A stretch of DNA of 33,585 nt from a virus. Position numbers and translations under genes: made by a program. The DNA lies in IMG/VR virus record IMGVR_UViG_3300027861_000109, positions 1 through 33,585 of that record, one strand, 5' to 3'. The notes under the pieces are model-generated. The model ran no database searches. It was not told the origin of the DNA and saw nothing but the letters and a program-made list of their open reading frames with translations. How positions within the stretch are numbered: the first letter of the stretch is position 1; every line of letters starts with the position of its first letter. Positions 7,763-26,120 of the stretch are shown here, one piece after another.

Positions 7763-8905
7763 ATGTCAACTCGGATCGTAGACTACTCAGCAACCCCCGG
7801 CAGTAACTCGACAGTCGATAGTATTTCGATTGCGGAGGGTATGTTGCCGTCAAACGTTAACAACGCCCTGCGGGCCATTATGAGCCACCTGAAGGAAATC
7901 ACGGACGGCACAGCCCCAATCGGCTATTCCGCTGTTGCAGACGCCGCTGCTGGACCTACGCTGGAACTTCACAGGAACAGTGCAAGCCCTGCCGACAGTG
8001 ACCTGATCGGCAACTGGATTTTCACTGGTGAGGACGACGGCAGCAACAAGACGACATACGCTGAAATCGCCGCAAAAATCATCGACGTAACGGACGCCAC
8101 TGAAGACGGTGCTCTGCTTCTGAAGGCAATGGTCGCCGGAACACTGACCACGATTGCCACGATTGACGCAACTGGCCTGACCGTTGTTGGTACGGTTACG
8201 GGTACAGGATTATCAGGATCAAACACAGGCGACGAAGCTGCTGCGAGTGTTACCGTTTCCGGCATTTCAGAACTTGCCACCACGGCAGAGACAACAACAG
8301 GGACCGATACCGCCCGCACAATAACGCCAGCGGGTTTGCATGGTGGTTTGGCTGCTCTTGGTGACGCGACAATTACAGCAAGTGATAAAATCGTCTTTGC
8401 CGATGTTGGGTCCAGTGACGCTTTACAGACAGACACGGTTCAGGGCATTCTTGATCTGGCGTCGACTGGTGTCGTAGGTGACGCGCTGGTTCATGCCTAC
8501 GTCAGTTCCCAGATAAATAACGGCTGGGGCGATAATGCCGAATACACAGTGATATTCGACACTGAAGTTGCAGACGTCGGCGCAGATTACAACACAGGAA
8601 CAGGCGTATTCACTGCTGAAGCCACTGGGTACCATCTCGTCACCTGGCATCTTGGTCTGGTCCCCGGTTCACATGCTGGTGGATACACACACGTAAACAC
8701 TTCAAACCGCGAATATTATACCGGCTATATGAATACCGCCAATTCTGTGAACGCTTCCGGTATACGTAGCATAGGCGGCGCTCTCCTGATTGATATGGAC
8801 GCTGGCGACACGCTCACGATTGACCAGTTGCTTGCCGGGGCATCCAAGGACGCTGATATGGCTGCATCGTCTACAACATGGCTTTCAATTATCCAACTGA
8901 CATAG
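7763..8905 (+). CDS. Tail fibre / receptor-binding protein with C1q-like tip
   Basis: 380 residues. The N-terminus (TRIVDYSATPGSNSTVDSI, NNALRAIMSHLKEITDG) is the virion-attachment type common in short-tail phage fibres. The middle is Thr/Ala/Val-rich beta structure (VTGTGLSGSNTGDEAAAS, TTGTDTARTITPAGLHGGL), typical of trimeric fibre shafts. The last 120 residues (VIFDTEVADVGADYNTGTG, FTAEATGYHLVTWHLGL, LLIDMDAGDTLTIDQLL) have the C1q/TNF jelly-roll pattern known from phage and eukaryotic binding heads. It likely contacts the host surface. The ATG directly follows the preceding TAA. Confidence 0.8.
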   Translation: MSTRIVDYSATPGSNSTVDSISIAEGMLPSNVNNALRAIMSHLKEITDGTAPIGYSAVADAAAGPTLELHRNSASPADSDLIGNWIFTGEDDGSNKTTYAEIAAKIIDVTDATEDGALLLKAMVAGTLTTIATIDATGLTVVGTVTGTGLSGSNTGDEAAASVTVSGISELATTAETTTGTDTARTITPAGLHGGLAALGDATITASDKIVFADVGSSDALQTDTVQGILDLASTGVVGDALVHAYVSSQINNGWGDNAEYTVIFDTEVADVGADYNTGTGVFTAEATGYHLVTWHLGLVPGSHAGGYTHVNTSNREYYTGYMNTANSVNASGIRSIGGALLIDMDAGDTLTIDQLLAGASKDADMAASSTTWLSIIQLT

Positions 8906-16928: not shown

Positions 16929-17414
16929 ATGATTATCCTTGGCATTGACCCCGGCATTAACGGCGCTGTCGCTTTATACGACACTGGCAGCAATACCATC
17001 GTAACAACGGGCTACCCGCACAAGACGGAACCATATAAGAAGACCACAAGAAAAATCATTGATGGCATTACCCTGCACAGATACCTGTCAGCCTTTGCCA
17101 TTGATGAGGTCTGGATGGAAAAGGTCAACGCCTTCGGGATGGGCCGCACCAGTGCCTTCAGGTTCGGTGAAGCCAACGGGGTTGCAATCGGGGTCATATC
17201 TGCTTTAGGCTTGTCAATCAATTTCGTGACCCCGCAGAAATGGAAGTACCATTTTGCACTGGATAACGACAAGGCCAGATCAAGGGAACTAGCACAACAG
17301 TTCTGGCCTGACGCCGCTGACCAGTTCGCAAGGGTGAAAGACACAGACAGATCAGAGGCCGCACTAATAGCGATGTATGGAGCATTGACTAATGGATACA
17401 CAACTAAAACCTGA
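16929..17414 (+). CDS. RuvC-like Holliday junction resolvase
   Basis: 161 residues, GGAG upstream of ATG. RuvC fold motifs: MIILGIDPG with D7, VWMEKV with E64, and DTDRSEAALIAMYG with D140 and E143 in place of the usual D/D pair. The phage enzyme would resolve branched DNA before packaging. The primase-helicase gene starts inside its last 23 bases, so the two are coupled. The fourth acidic residue being Glu is a small deviation from the E. coli protein. Confidence 0.85.
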   Translation: MIILGIDPGINGAVALYDTGSNTIVTTGYPHKTEPYKKTTRKIIDGITLHRYLSAFAIDEVWMEKVNAFGMGRTSAFRFGEANGVAIGVISALGLSINFVTPQKWKYHFALDNDKARSRELAQQFWPDAADQFARVKDTDRSEAALIAMYGALTNGYTTKT

Positions 17415-19596
17415 TACCAACAGCATCCTGTCGCACTTGGAAACCATATTCGGTGACCAGATGACGGGTCTGGTGGAACTATCATGGACAGACCCCTTTG
17501 GGCCACTCAAACACGCCCAGTTATTTGAACTCGACAATCTCGACAGCATGGCAGAAAAGGCCGAAAGCCTTAATCAAACAGAAGGCGTCAACGTTTATTA
17601 TGGTCAGGCATTAAGAAGCCCAAACTGTGCGCCGTTCGGGCGTACCTCTGACAGTGACGTTATCGCCCTCACAGCCGTCTATTGCGATCTGGATGACGCA
17701 GGTGCCGCAGAGGCCGCAAGGGCCATCTACACGGCAATAGGCATAAAGCCCACCAGTATCGTCATCACAGGTGAACACCCTCACGTTCGGGCGCAGATGC
17801 ACTACAGGCTACTGGAAGCCATCACAGATCACGCCCAAATGCGAAATATTAACAGTGCAATATGTCGCACATTCTCAGGCGATCCTACAGTTGTTAATCC
17901 CTCAAGGGTTCTGCGATTACCCGGCACAATAGCGTGGCCCCACAAAAAGGGCCGTGTTGCAGAAATGACGCAACTTATTGACAGCTTCCCTGATAATAGG
18001 CCAAAATCACTTGCGATTGAACATATAGAAAGAGTTTTTTCGGAGAGCAGCGACGGCGGGCCTTCCCTCCCGTTTCAGTCAGCAGCCCCGGATAGTGGGG
18101 TCCAGACATTGCCTCCATCATTGTCTGGCCCCACACCCCCTAACAGGCTTGTCGCAGGTGTAGAAGGTCAGGAGTACTGGCTAGAACGCATCAAGGCCGG
18201 GGACCACTGGCATAACAACATGATCAAGCTGGTTGGGTCCATGATGGCCCAAGGCATTGCAGACGACGTTATACTGTCACTCGCCCCCACAATAACCCTG
18301 CCGGGATATGCCTTGCCGGATACCCTCAGAGAAATGGGGGTTGCCATTCAAGGCGGCAGAAAAAAGGGTTTCACAGAAGGCGTATCACCTAGTGGTACAC
18401 CAGAACAGTTAATCCCTGAAGGCGACTTGATTGCCACACCACTTAGAAAATTCGACCCTGCCACAATACCGCCACGGCCTTGGATCGTCAGCGGGCTACT
18501 CCTAAAGGGTAAGGTTTCAGTCATTATCGCCCCTCCCGGTGTTGGTAAATCCACACTGACCATCCAGATCGGCATTGCCATCTGCACAGATAAAGACTTT
18601 GGCACACTGGTCATCAAGGATCAGGGCAAGGTCTGGCTATACAATAACGAAGACGATCAGGAAGAACTGGAACGCCGTGTTGCTGCCGCAGCTATTCACG
18701 TTGGTATGCAAGCCAGTGACCTGACAGATGTGATGTTCGTCAACTCAGGAGAAAACAGGGAACTCCTAATAGCAAGAGAAGACCCAAACACCAGCTACGT
18801 CATCCCGGTTGACGTTGATGCCGTGGTCGAGCAGATCAAGGCCAACAATATCAAGGTGCTGGTCGTTGACCCATTCGCAGAGACGCACACGGTCAACGAA
18901 AACTCTAATGATCATATCAAGCAAGTGGGCCGTATGTACCGCCAGATAGCCCAGCGCGGTGATTGTGCCGTCTTATTGGTGCATCACACCCGCAAGCCCT
19001 CACAGGCCGCTGGTGACACTCATATAGGTAATATGGACAGCGGGCGTGGCGCTGGCGCACTGTCAGGCGTTGCCCGTGTCGTCACCACATTGTACGGCAT
19101 GACAGAAAAAGATGCTGACCGGTTCGGAATACCCGCAGAAGAACGCAACCTGTATATCCGAATGGATGACGCAAAGGCCAACCTTTCACTGGTATCAAAT
19201 GAGGCTAGATGGTTCAAACGGACCTCCGAAAACCTTGGGAACGGCCCCATCGGCGCAGGTGATGAGGTCGGCGTTCTCAGCCCCGTTGACCTGTCCAGCA
19301 ATGAACAAAAGGCCAAAAAACAGAAGGCTGACGAAGAATCGCAGATGATGTTTGATGTCCTTCAGGTCGTCAGAACTGAGCCAGCAACGCCAAATTACAT
19401 TGCCGGGATCATGGCGAAAGGAGACGTTTACACCACCTCCAGCGGCACGAATTTGAAGGCAAACGCAGTGGCAAACAGGATCGTTACCAGCCTGACTTAT
19501 GGCTCGATCAGGGTCGGAGATTGGGTCATAAATATGGAAATTTTCCCTGATGGAAAGAAGAAATATCGGGTCTTCGCAGAGGAGAAAAAGCTGTGA
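17392..19596 (+). CDS. Primase-helicase (RepB-like primase domain plus RepA-like AAA ATPase)
   Basis: 734 residues. The N-terminal region has a primase-type core: TAVYCDLDDAGAA (D-x-D at about 102-104), SIVITGEHPHVRAQMHYRLL and the conserved NPSRVLRLPGTIAWPHKKGR found in RepB-like and AEP-related primases. A Pro-rich linker follows at about 225-250. The C-terminal RecA-like domain has Walker A in IIAPPGVGKSTLTIQIG, a NNEDDQEELERR box, Walker B VLVVDPF and a LLVHHTRK sensor, as in RepA/AAA_25 helicases. It is probably the replication initiator and helicase, with the iteron array directly downstream. Confidence 0.85.
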   Translation: MDTQLKPDTNSILSHLETIFGDQMTGLVELSWTDPFGPLKHAQLFELDNLDSMAEKAESLNQTEGVNVYYGQALRSPNCAPFGRTSDSDVIALTAVYCDLDDAGAAEAARAIYTAIGIKPTSIVITGEHPHVRAQMHYRLLEAITDHAQMRNINSAICRTFSGDPTVVNPSRVLRLPGTIAWPHKKGRVAEMTQLIDSFPDNRPKSLAIEHIERVFSESSDGGPSLPFQSAAPDSGVQTLPPSLSGPTPPNRLVAGVEGQEYWLERIKAGDHWHNNMIKLVGSMMAQGIADDVILSLAPTITLPGYALPDTLREMGVAIQGGRKKGFTEGVSPSGTPEQLIPEGDLIATPLRKFDPATIPPRPWIVSGLLLKGKVSVIIAPPGVGKSTLTIQIGIAICTDKDFGTLVIKDQGKVWLYNNEDDQEELERRVAAAAIHVGMQASDLTDVMFVNSGENRELLIAREDPNTSYVIPVDVDAVVEQIKANNIKVLVVDPFAETHTVNENSNDHIKQVGRMYRQIAQRGDCAVLLVHHTRKPSQAAGDTHIGNMDSGRGAGALSGVARVVTTLYGMTEKDADRFGIPAEERNLYIRMDDAKANLSLVSNEARWFKRTSENLGNGPIGAGDEVGVLSPVDLSSNEQKAKKQKADEESQMMFDVLQVVRTEPATPNYIAGIMAKGDVYTTSSGTNLKANAVANRIVTSLTYGSIRVGDWVINMEIFPDGKKKYRVFAEEKKL

Positions 19597-22168: not shown

Positions 22169-22474
22169 ATGGAAGTTAAACAAACACCCCTTGCAGACAT
22201 ACTGCCCTATGCGGCAAACGCCAGGACACACAGCGTTATTTGTGCTATGTGCGGCACGACAGACGGCTTGCAGGTCCACCACATTGTTCCGTTCCGCCTT
22301 ACCAGAGACAATACGCAGAGCAATCTTGTCCCGCTTTGCTTGAAACATCATAAGCACGTTGAAACTGTTACGCATGACATTGAGGCTGTAACCGAAGATT
22401 TTGAGGTGATGAAGTTATTTATGGGAAATATAATCAGGGAACATCAAGACAGGTGGAGGCTGGCGCATGGATGA
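22169..22474 (+). CDS. HNH endonuclease with ParB-like N-terminal leader
   Basis: 101 residues. The HNH zinc finger is complete: CAMC (25-28), LQVHHIVPF (HH about 36-37), N at about 50, and CLKHH (56-60). The first 22 residues, with PLADILPYAANARTHS, resemble the start of ParB-type methyltransferases, and the next gene has the equivalent LSADEIRPYKNNSRTHS. It looks like an HNH cassette joined to the beginning of a methyltransferase gene, next to an intact copy. It overlaps that gene by 8 bases. Possibly a free-standing homing or packaging-associated nuclease. Confidence 0.75.
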   Translation: MEVKQTPLADILPYAANARTHSVICAMCGTTDGLQVHHIVPFRLTRDNTQSNLVPLCLKHHKHVETVTHDIEAVTEDFEVMKLFMGNIIREHQDRWRLAHG

Positions 22475-23708
22475 TAAACTTGAAATAAAATATCTGTCTG
22501 CCGACGAAATTCGACCATATAAAAACAACAGCAGGACACATTCCGCTGACCAGATTGATAGACTGAAGCGGTCAATAAAGCAGTTTGGCATGTTGACGCC
22601 TATCGCTATTCACAATGGCGATATTGTTTATGGACACGCGAGGTTTACAGCCCTGAAGGCATTGGGCTGGACGGAGTTCCCGACTGTAGATGTTTCGCAC
22701 TTAAGCGATGAAGACAAACGCGCTTACATAATCGCTGATAATCGCCTTGCACTTGACGCCGGATGGGATTTGGACCTGCTCAAGATAGAACTGACGGGGC
22801 TGGACGATGAAGGCTTTGACCTGTCCCTGATTGGCTTTGACCCCGACGAGTTAGCTAACCTGATGCAAGAGCCGACAGAAGGGTTGACCGATCCCGACGC
22901 CGTTCCCGACATACCTGACGACCCTGTTACAAAGCCGGGGGATGTCTGGATTATGGGCAAGCACCGATTATGCTGCGGAGACAGTACGAGCGCAGACGAT
23001 GTTGCGAAGGCGCTTAATGGTGTTGAACCGCACTTGATGGTTACTGACCCGCCTTATGGTGTCGAGTATGACGCCGAATGGCGCAAGGAGGCGTTGCCAG
23101 ACACAAACCCCGGAAAGACGGGTGGTATGCATGGCAAGGTGTCAAATGATGACAACGCAGACTGGTCAGAAGCTTGGTCGCTATTCCCCGGAGATGTTGC
23201 GTATGTTTGGCACGCTGGGAATAAGGCAAATATTGTTGCTGATAGCCTGTTGAAATGCGACTTGAACATTAGGGCGCAAATAATTTGGAACAAACACCAG
23301 CACGTTATTAGCCGTGGCGACTACCATCCGAAACATGAGCCATGCTGGTATGCTGTGCGGAAGAACAAAGTGGGGCATTATTGCGGAGGGCGGAAGCAGT
23401 CAACAGTTTGGGATATTCAGAAGCCGCTTAATTCAGAAACAGGCCACAGCACGCAAAAGCCTGTCGAATGTATGCAGCGCCCTATAGAAAACAATTCAAG
23501 CCCCGGTCAGGCGGTTTATGACCCGTTCCTTGGTTCCGGCACAACAGTCATTGCCGCAGAGCAAACGGGCCGCGCTTGTCACGGTCTGGAACTGTCCCCA
23601 GCATACTGTGACGTTATCGTAAAACGCTGGCAGGACTTCACTGGCGAACAGGCCACACTTGAGGCAGACGGGACCGTTTTTTCCCCTGATATAGCAAATG
23701 CCCCGTAA
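22467..23708 (+). CDS. ParB-N domain DNA methyltransferase (beta class, N6-adenine or N4-cytosine)
   Basis: 413 residues. Residues 1-100 are a ParB/Srx-like domain (SADEIRPYKNNSRTHSADQI, IVYGHARFTALKALGWTEFP, IIADNRLALDAGWD). From about 155 comes the methyltransferase: GDVWIMGKHRLCCGD, catalytic DPPYG at 194-198, then the SAM-binding DPFLGSGTT at 352-360 and GLELSPAYCDVIVKRW. Motif IV before motif I is the beta-class order. No restriction partner is visible apart from the HNH proteins. Likely protects phage DNA or marks it for packaging or regulation. Confidence 0.9.
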   Translation: MDDKLEIKYLSADEIRPYKNNSRTHSADQIDRLKRSIKQFGMLTPIAIHNGDIVYGHARFTALKALGWTEFPTVDVSHLSDEDKRAYIIADNRLALDAGWDLDLLKIELTGLDDEGFDLSLIGFDPDELANLMQEPTEGLTDPDAVPDIPDDPVTKPGDVWIMGKHRLCCGDSTSADDVAKALNGVEPHLMVTDPPYGVEYDAEWRKEALPDTNPGKTGGMHGKVSNDDNADWSEAWSLFPGDVAYVWHAGNKANIVADSLLKCDLNIRAQIIWNKHQHVISRGDYHPKHEPCWYAVRKNKVGHYCGGRKQSTVWDIQKPLNSETGHSTQKPVECMQRPIENNSSPGQAVYDPFLGSGTTVIAAEQTGRACHGLELSPAYCDVIVKRWQDFTGEQATLEADGTVFSPDIANAP

Positions 23709-24051
23709 ACCAAGAGGCAAAGCACACGGCAGGCCAGCGTTCAAGCCGACTGACGATGACCGCAAAACGGTTGAATTGATGTGCGCTGTAGGCATACCGC
23801 ATGAAGGCATTGCCCGCTGTATTCAGGGCGGCATTGACGACAAGACGTTACGCAAGCACTTCCCCGAAGAACTGGAAACCGCAGCTATCAGGGCAAATAC
23901 AAAGGTTGCCGGGTCAATGTTCCAGTCAGCTATCAGCGGGAATGTTGCGGCGCAAAAGCACTGGACTTCTGCCCGCATGGGTTGGAGCGAGAACCTGAAG
24001 CTGGACGCCACAGTTAGAAAGATCAGCATGTTTGGTGAAGAAATAGAATGA
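23698..24051 (+). CDS. terS: Terminase small subunit
   Basis: 117 residues; ATG 23698 lies inside the end of the methyltransferase gene and the stop overlaps the large-subunit ATG (ATGA). The N-terminus is basic (PRKPRGKAHGRPAFKPTDDD). An HTH follows: RKTVELMCAVGIPHEGIARC then GIDDKTLRKHFPEEL. The helical remainder (AIRANTKVAGSMFQSAISGN) is typical of small terminases. It should bind the pac site and hand DNA to the large subunit. Confidence 0.8.
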   Translation: MPRKPRGKAHGRPAFKPTDDDRKTVELMCAVGIPHEGIARCIQGGIDDKTLRKHFPEELETAAIRANTKVAGSMFQSAISGNVAAQKHWTSARMGWSENLKLDATVRKISMFGEEIE

Positions 24052-26120
24052 TTGGTGCTGCGTCTGACAAGTTCAAGCCAATGCTGGCCCGCAGCCGTTA
24101 TAAGGCTTTATACGGTGGACGCGGAAGCGCCAAGAGCCACTTCTTCGCAGAGGCGTTGATTGGTTGCGCTGCTGACAGTATGGGGTTTCGTGCCGTCTGT
24201 ATCCGCGAAGTCCAGAAGACACTGCGGGAATCGGCCAAGCGACTGTTAGAGGACAAGATTGAAGCCTTCGGCCTGCAAAACAGCTTTCAGATACTCAATG
24301 ACAGGATTGTAACGCCGGGCGGCGGCACGATCATCTTTCAGGGTATGCAAGACCACACGGCGGAAAGCATCAAGTCGCTGGAAAACTTTCAGGTGGCTTG
24401 GGTCGAGGAAGCGCAGACATTATCGCAGAAGTCCCTTGAACTGTTGCGCCCAACGATCCGATCAAAAGGCTCTGAGTTATGGTTTAGCTGGAACCCGCGC
24501 TCTGCAAGCGACCCTGTAGACAAGTTCTTTCGTGGCCTGACCCCGCCTGAAAGTTCAATCATTATCGGGATCAACTACCCGGACAACAAACTATTCCCGA
24601 CTGAACTGGAAGCAGAACGCCAGCACGACTATGCCACGAACCAAGGCCGCTATGATCATATCTGGCTTGGCGGTTACGAGCCTGAAGCCGTGGGTGCTAT
24701 CTTTAACCGGGCCAACATTCACGAAAACCGCAAGGCAGAAGCACCTGAACTTGAACGCATCGTGATTGGCATTGATCCTGCCGTCACAGACAACGAGAAC
24801 AGCGACCATCACGGCATAGCAGTCTGCGGCCTTGGCAGCGACGGACGCGGCTATCTGTTAGAGGACGCCAGCTTACAGGGTGGGCCGCACCAGTGGGCAA
24901 CCAGAGCCGTTGCAATGTTCGATCTGTACGAGGCCAACGCCATAGTGATTGAGGTCAACCAAGGCGGAGACCTTTTGAGGCATACACTTGAAACTGTACG
25001 CAAGGGTATCCCGATTATTGAAGTCAGGGCGACGAAAGGCAAGCACGTTCGGGCAGAGCCTATATCAGCATTATACGCTATCAACAAAATCAGCCATATC
25101 GGCACGTTTAACGACTTGGAAAATCAGCTTTGCGTAGAAGAAGGAACACTAATCGAAACAGACCGTGGGCAAGTGCCTATTGAGGATGTTACCTTGAGCG
25201 ACAGGGTTATGACCCGTAACGGCCTTGCGTTAATTGACTGGTGTGGCTATACTGGTGAAGCAAGCAGTCTTATTGAAATTGAGACTGTAAATTCAGTCTT
25301 GAGGGTTACGCCATGCCATCCGATATATCTACCAGAGACAAACGAGTTTGTGACTGTGGAGAGTGTTCTGATTTCCCACAACCTACTAGAAAGCCGCAAA
25401 TGGGCAAGAATGGCCAGCCTGTTGCGTGGCGAGGTAGATGGTATGGGAAAATGCCAAGAGGCCACTATCGCAACTCACATACAGGATTACTTCACAGAGA
25501 AATATTTGAGGCGCATACAGGCCCAATCCCTGAAGGCTTCCATATTCACCACGTTAACCACGATCCTGAAGACAATCGCCCTGAAAACCTTGTCGCACTT
25601 TCCCACGCCGATCATCATGCCTTGCATGAGCGCATGGGGTTTGATGTCTTTGACGGCACAATCACAGTCGGCAAATGTGTCGAGTGCGGAGCAAGCACCG
25701 AAACAATACGACTTCACGCCAGCGAATACTGTTCGCAAAAGTGCTATATGCGGAGATACAGACGCAGCAAACCCAAGACAACATTCGTCTATGGATGCGC
25801 TGAGTGCAGCCAAATCATTGCAACAACCCATAAGAACGGCAAGAAATATTGCTCTCCGAAATGTAAGGCGCGTGGATTTAGGAAAAGACACAAAGCGGGT
25901 CTATAATATTACGGTTGCAGAAAGTGGCCTTCCAGAGTATTATGCTAACGGTATCCTGACCCATAATTGCAAATTCACCAATGTGGGGTATGATGGCGAC
26001 GACAGCCCTGATCGTGCTGAAGCTGCAATTTGGGCGTTTACAGAATTATTCCCGGCGCTGGTCAAACAGAAGCCGAAGAAGCAACACCAGAGGCCACGTA
26101 AAATTAGCTGGATGGGCTGA
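24048..26120 (+). CDS. terL: Terminase large subunit interrupted by an intein
   Basis: 690 codons; 411 residues after intein removal. ATPase motifs: Walker A GGRGSAKS at 23-30, Walker B VAWVEEA at 116-122, coupling motif FSWNP at 146-150. RuvC-like nuclease: D243 in IVIGIDPAV, E302 and D308 in VIEVNQGGD, and the last motif SPDRAEA with D655 after the intein. Joining residue 361 to 641 gives FNDLENQL-CKFTNVG, the expected terminase sequence, so splicing appears essential for the nuclease. The protein should cleave and pump DNA into the prohead. The start overlaps the small subunit stop (ATGA). Confidence 0.92.
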   Translation: MIGAASDKFKPMLARSRYKALYGGRGSAKSHFFAEALIGCAADSMGFRAVCIREVQKTLRESAKRLLEDKIEAFGLQNSFQILNDRIVTPGGGTIIFQGMQDHTAESIKSLENFQVAWVEEAQTLSQKSLELLRPTIRSKGSELWFSWNPRSASDPVDKFFRGLTPPESSIIIGINYPDNKLFPTELEAERQHDYATNQGRYDHIWLGGYEPEAVGAIFNRANIHENRKAEAPELERIVIGIDPAVTDNENSDHHGIAVCGLGSDGRGYLLEDASLQGGPHQWATRAVAMFDLYEANAIVIEVNQGGDLLRHTLETVRKGIPIIEVRATKGKHVRAEPISALYAINKISHIGTFNDLENQLCVEEGTLIETDRGQVPIEDVTLSDRVMTRNGLALIDWCGYTGEASSLIEIETVNSVLRVTPCHPIYLPETNEFVTVESVLISHNLLESRKWARMASLLRGEVDGMGKCQEATIATHIQDYFTEKYLRRIQAQSLKASIFTTLTTILKTIALKTLSHFPTPIIMPCMSAWGLMSLTAQSQSANVSSAEQAPKQYDFTPANTVRKSAICGDTDAANPRQHSSMDALSAAKSLQQPIRTARNIALRNVRRVDLGKDTKRVYNITVAESGLPEYYANGILTHNCKFTNVGYDGDDSPDRAEAAIWAFTELFPALVKQKPKKQHQRPRKISWMG
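25313..25906 (+). CDS. HNH homing endonuclease nested out of frame in the intein
   Basis: 197 residues in the -1 frame relative to terminase. ATG 25313 has GAGGG 7 bases upstream; ATG 25400 is a second candidate, since 25313-25400 also encodes conserved intein strands. The HNH_3 core is intact: HREIFEAHTGPIPEGFHIHH, DPEDNRPENLVALSHADHH, with HH/N/H residues in the usual places. Two C4 zinc-finger-like motifs follow: CVECG...YCSQKC and CAECS...YCSPKC. The stop TAA at 25904-25906 is formed from intein block F bases. It likely makes a free endonuclease that promotes homing of the intein. Confidence 0.85.
   Translation: MPSDISTRDKRVCDCGECSDFPQPTRKPQMGKNGQPVAWRGRWYGKMPRGHYRNSHTGLLHREIFEAHTGPIPEGFHIHHVNHDPEDNRPENLVALSHADHHALHERMGFDVFDGTITVGKCVECGASTETIRLHASEYCSQKCYMRRYRRSKPKTTFVYGCAECSQIIATTHKNGKKYCSPKCKARGFRKRHKAGL
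25445..25451 (+). promoter_or_regulatory. Candidate -1 ribosomal frameshift heptamer
   Basis: In the intein frame the bases read ATG GGA AAA TGC, giving G GGA AAA, an X XXY YYZ heptamer. A -1 slip moves the ribosome into the HNH frame at GGG AAA ATG, a few residues before the HNH core. Only a short possible hairpin (GCC-AAGA-GGC) lies downstream. Chance occurrence cannot be excluded. Confidence 0.3.

Follow-up and report, generated by a model that had tools for sequence, protein, structure and literature searches.

An HNH endonuclease frame overlapping a terminase intein out of frame, and the recurrence of this layout in diverged phage and prokaryote genes

Can one segment of DNA be maintained both as an intein and as a separate homing endonuclease read in another frame? 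The question is raised by the large terminase gene of a viral stretch of 33,585 nucleotides (IMG/VR record IMGVR_UViG_3300027861_000109, positions 1 to 33,585), referred to here as the window. The gene (24048-26120; this and the other terminase, intein, and HNH features of the window are on the + strand) is a single uninterrupted frame of 690 codons that matches Pfam Terminase_3 (E = 7.6e-30) and Terminase_6C (E = 5.8e-9). The original prediction had placed in this frame a canonical class 1 intein with Cys1, TPCH, HN, and Cys+1, which we found at 25131-25967 (279 codons). Cys1 lies at 25131, Asn279 at 25965-25967, and Cys+1 at 25968-25970; the intein starts with CVEEGTL, carries TPCH in block B, and ends in THN/C, its block F/G end reading ...YYANGILTHN. 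All intein catalytic residues common to the family are present. NCBIfam TIGR01443 (intein_Cterm) exceeded its own cut-off, and Pfam Hint_2 (E = 1.5e-5) fell slightly under its own.

Modeling of the intein frame with AlphaFold gave a Hint fold with confident residues 1-90 and 240-279 (pLDDT >90 at both ends) and mostly disordered residues ~105-235, and Foldseek matched the model to Ssp DnaB, gp41-1, and other mini-inteins. The N-terminal splicing segment (blocks A and B, including TPCH) spans 25131-25400, with pLDDT 94-97 over residues 1-90. The C-terminal segment (blocks F and G) spans 25884-25967, as placed by intein_Cterm, N- and C-intein profiles, and AlphaFold. The predicted spliced terminase of 411 residues aligned without gaps across the junction with the TerL of MW091528, an intein-less homolog with no in-frame insert. 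Because the intein frame is continuous, splicing in cis would be expected, and the continuous 690-codon ORF rules out for the window a split intein with its halves on separate ORFs. A group I intron carrying the HNH was also rejected, as the window had no Rfam match and the host frame is open and spells an intein. Other features of the window are a fusion of a ParB_N domain and an N6/N4 DNA methylase located directly before the terminase genes (22467-23708), a weak C1q-like domain (E = 4.7e-5) in what is possibly a fiber or tail protein (7763-8905), and a 734-residue AAA_25/DnaB-like protein whose long N-terminal part has no Pfam match (17392-19596).

The endonuclease lies in a second frame. 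As had been predicted, positions 25313-25906 encode a complete homing-type endonuclease of the HNH_3 family that carries two C4 fingers; its frame is -1 relative to that of the intein (197 residues; Pfam HNH_3, E = 3e-16). Its catalytic domain aligns with Pfam over residues 60-102 (25490-25618), finger 1 (Cys122/125/140/144; 25676-25744) is invariant in 21 relatives, and finger 2 (Cys162/165/180/184; 25796-25864) is at least 90% conserved. The H/N/H motif is invariant among relatives, and the window has all HNH and zinc-finger residues of the family. AlphaFold predicted an ordered protein from this frame (mean pLDDT 84.8), for which the best Foldseek match was the homing endonuclease I-HmuI, at a weak E-value of 0.048. 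ATG 25400 had been offered as a possible start; ATG 25313 is most likely the start instead, because the added N-terminal residues are conserved in relatives. Both proteins are conserved over 25313-25399, where the block B region of the intein overlaps the N-terminal CxCxxC extension of the HNH, and the TAA stop of the HNH (25904-25906) is formed across the TAT AAT that encodes Tyr-Asn in intein block F. The intein frame itself contains no endonuclease, so the window departs from the classical nested in-frame arrangement.

Whether an open second frame at this locus is surprising depends on the null. The probability of chance opening had been put at (61/64)^160, or about 0.0005, which is too small because it ignores the constraint imposed by the HNH protein. 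When we fixed the HNH protein and redrew synonymous codons, 2.2-2.4 stops were expected in the intein frame of the window, and the probability of an open frame was 0.076 with the codon usage of the locus and 0.029 by codon shuffling. The region is stop-poor, and a 134-residue antisense ORF spans the same stretch. By itself, the window is only suggestive of dual-frame maintenance, and the comparative evidence is decisive.

No close relative of the window was found among 50,697 phage records, and querying IMG/VR directly with the window intein alone or the HNH alone also returned no relative. TBLASTN with the HNH as the query hit three terminase genes, those of Rhodobacteraceae phage LS06-2018-MD07, Tetrasphaera phage TJE1, and Acinetobacter phage Highwayman, each of which encodes an intein in the terminase frame and has its HNH out of frame at the offset seen in the window. 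An HNH alignment used as the query retrieved 80 IMG/VR loci, and a single-protein search added one more. Searches with N- and C-intein profiles placed most of the retrieved HNH loci in inteins with the same offset. Most related loci are metagenomic assemblies, and the sample was collected by similarity to such HNHs, so it describes the layout and not its overall frequency.

Across 59 ORFs with the same offset, the intein frame contained 10 stops, compared with 224 expected, and was open in 57 (2.9 expected). Retaining one locus per cluster at 80% HNH identity gave 49 independent clusters, with 10 intein-frame stops against 182 expected. The intein frame was open in 47 of these clusters, compared with 2.8 expected and a maximum of 11 in 200,000 simulations. 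All 10 stops fall in two split-intein loci, L018 and L080. Intein ends are canonical in nearly all loci, and diverged loci retain Cys1, TxxH, (H/S)N, and Cys/Ser+1. The unused third frame showed no avoidance over all loci (968 stops, 909 expected). Likewise, 22 control HNH ORFs without a detected intein carried 83 stops in the same frame against 95 expected, and the three of them that were stop-free in the intein-equivalent frame may be missed inteins. Rfam detected no group I intron in 16 loci having an HNH without a detected intein. A matched pair shows the contrast: in Acinetobacter phage BP10, the free-standing HNH, which is 50.5% identical to the intein HNH of Highwayman, has 12 stops in this frame, whereas the Highwayman intein copy has none. 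We rejected these two phages as a full/empty intein pair, as their terminases are too dissimilar. Four HNH ORFs (L049, L051, L094, and L096) are stop-free in the +1 frame with no detected intein and are perhaps missed inteins or inserts resembling the ShiLan domain discussed below.

These comparisons, of the kind suggested with the original prediction, support its proposal that both frames are maintained and would give an intein and a free endonuclease: stops are avoided in the inteins and occur at the null rate in HNH controls, and the HNH frame evolves as coding sequence. The two-frame layout is thus a maintained design in ~50 diverged phage and prokaryote genes and no accident. The contrary reading, that chance left the second frame open or that the HNH was recently shifted by two indels or a sequencing error, draws on the window-only probability of 0.03-0.08. 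However, it must contend with the near-universal opening among independent clusters, including contigs of 32% GC, with an offset that is the same in all but one clade, and with the presence of the layout in GenBank phage genomes as well. At the level of the family this reading is refuted, and we give it practically no weight.

To compare the two frames, we measured divergence by codon position. HNH codon position 3 was the most variable in every codon-aligned pair, and in nearly all pairs divergence followed the order position 3 > position 1 > position 2. This pattern in the sequences identifies the HNH frame as the constrained frame, under purifying selection. Since HNH position 3 corresponds to intein codon position 2, the middle of the intein would tolerate any substitutions except those that create stops. 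Fourfold-site rates over the whole overlapped intein frame gave no consistent signal of amino-acid constraint. As modeled, most of the overlapped intein is probably not a conserved protein domain but a disordered linker on which the main constraint is to stay free of stops. In L007-L010, and partly in L006, the block B region of the intein coincides with an HNH N-terminal motif resembling the DKRVCDCGEC of the window. The segment at the HNH start changes at 17%, compared with 33% elsewhere in the N-intein (Fisher P = 1e-4; four related loci).

These data also bear on whether the intein alone is at work and the HNH ORF is defunct or seldom expressed. A decayed HNH in an open intein (L034) and the loci without a ribosome-binding site speak for this, but the catalytic His/Asn and the Cys residues are invariant, divergence follows the coding pattern just described, and the start codon is maintained. 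We consider a dead or silent HNH quite unlikely.

We propose instead a mobile intein whose splicing element and homing endonuclease would be two separate proteins made from overlapping frames, a reading to which we assign a probability of about 0.86 from sequence and structure prediction. Ribosomes starting at the terminase start codon would produce a 690-residue precursor. The Hint domain formed by the ends of the intein frame would excise itself to leave the 411-residue terminase, with the intein middle serving as an unstructured linker. On the same mRNA, an internal start at ATG 25313 would yield a free 197-residue HNH endonuclease with two zinc fingers. This enzyme would cleave terminase alleles that lack the intein, whose repair would then copy in the whole segment.

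Several features bear on how the HNH would be translated. In the window, a probable Shine-Dalgarno sequence, GAGGG (25301-25305), lies 7 nt before ATG 25313, with an anti-SD duplex of -6.1 kcal/mol. The HNH start codon, located at the N-intein end, is ATG in 55 of 57 loci and GTG in the other two, and an in-frame ATG upstream of the HNH core is present in 55 of 59 ORFs, compared with 34 expected. Strong anti-SD pairing (-7 kcal/mol or better) was found at 21% of HNH starts and 7% of control starts; several related loci have no recognizable ribosome-binding site. In 42 of 57 loci, the HNH frame has a stop no more than 30 nt before the start, and the HNH stop is made from Tyr-Asp/Asn codons of intein block F in 26 of 57, including the window. 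A canonical -1 slippery heptamer (X XXY YYZ) was found in the usable stretch of none of the 57 loci.

Could the HNH instead arise through -1 ribosomal frameshifting out of the terminase frame, fused to the N-extein and N-intein? Its position in the -1 frame in all clades but one would fit, but this offset is explicable otherwise, because far fewer stops are expected across the HNH coding sequence in the intein frame (224) than in the remaining frame (909). Moreover, the loci L052, L053, and L055 have the opposite offset. Together, the ATG starts, the enrichment of ribosome-binding sites, the upstream stops, and the absence of heptamers favor internal initiation, leaving frameshifting highly improbable. 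A further alternative is that the insert does not splice and remains in the protein. This has been proposed for the ShiLan domain, whose hidden HNH has the same frame relationship (PMC11855218). However, no splicing motifs were detectable around the HNH in ShiLan, whereas the splicing residues are conserved here, the predicted fold is Hint, and the inserts sit at functional motifs of an essential gene. We regard a non-splicing insert as very improbable indeed.

How widespread is this layout, and how does it vary? By Pfam, most host proteins carry terminase domains and four carry a portal domain. The layout is present in phage genome records, including GenBank, and in bacterial and archaeal MAGs, possibly as prophages, with carriers in Bacteroides, Acidobacteria, Patescibacteria, Nitrospiraceae, and a Thermoplasmatales archaeon. 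The last of these (L115) is a MAG chromosome with the same dual-frame intein. Three loci (L007, L037, and L085) have two inteins in one host protein, each with its own out-of-frame HNH. In L052, L053, and L055 (inteins at L052:2739-3626 and L055:2664-3572), the HNH takes the opposite offset (+2), with 0 stops there against 12-16 expected. These loci form one clade in the HNH tree, which suggests that the dual-frame layout probably arose at least twice. At L034:2956-3396, the HNH frame is broken into two ORFs and the intein frame is intact, consistent with a decaying endonuclease and indicating that the HNH can be lost. One clear relative (L106) has an intein with an in-frame HNH.

Apparent split inteins with an HNH gene between their halves were found in the terminase genes of L018, L080, L088, L095, L101, and L116. 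Six of seven split loci fall in one supported HNH clade, together with L097, L113, and others, in a tree of low resolution (open at 50 of 105 branches). Related free-standing HNHs adjoin terminase genes in Pseudomonas PAE1, Lactobacillus CL2, Exiguobacterium EauM-23, and Acinetobacter BP10. In the proposed order of events, which the low resolution of the HNH tree leaves tentative, a free HNH would have entered a mini-intein and splitting would have come later.

Dual-frame inteins may constitute a class of mobile element in its own right, both widespread and long-lived. They would have formed when free-standing HNH genes linked to terminases moved into mini-inteins in a different frame, with the HNH start and stop kept inside blocks B and F. 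Breakage of the intein frame would then give rise to natural split inteins, and the class would bridge free-standing endonucleases, inteins, and split inteins. We see about as much reason to accept this broader proposal as to doubt it. On the main reading, a whole group would uncouple splicing from endonuclease function by dual coding, freeing the endonuclease from splicing, and the layout suggests how free-standing endonucleases, inteins, and split inteins interconvert. Dual coding may also hide the endonuclease from annotation; for L002, L003, and L004, terminase is the sole annotation of the stretch. In addition, the loci are a clear example of maintained overlapping genes, replicated in large number, in which dual-frame constraint can be measured.

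Standard descriptions place the endonuclease in frame inside the intein (PMC2814812, PMC6801210). The window shares with classical mobile inteins a Hint domain, an endonuclease between blocks B and F, and insertion at a conserved motif (PMC6801210); unlike in those elements, its endonuclease would be a separate protein from another frame and not part of the excised intein. The free-standing HNHs of PAE1, CL2, EauM-23, and BP10 belong to the same family and are 35-50% identical to the Highwayman intein HNH, but they lie by terminase genes outside inteins and have stops in other frames, unlike the HNH of the window. Dassa and colleagues reportedly described, in 2009, fractured genes in which a homing endonuclease gene lies between the halves of a split intein. 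There, as here, the endonuclease is a separate protein between intein segments, but the intein frame of the window is unbroken.

We found no functional-looking intein with an out-of-frame endonuclease in the open literature searched. Among open papers, the closest published precedent is the ShiLan domain, an out-of-frame HNH hidden in methylases of mycobacteriophages (Arsenault et al. 2025, PMC11855218); a hidden HNH insert also occurs in phage Applejack (PMC12613952). As in ShiLan, the insert in the window contains an HNH with zinc fingers out of frame, the host frame is open, and the host frame is the HNH frame + 1. In ShiLan, the sequence around the HNH shows no detectable splicing motifs and the insert is believed to remain in the protein, whereas the host frame of the window encodes a complete class 1 intein.
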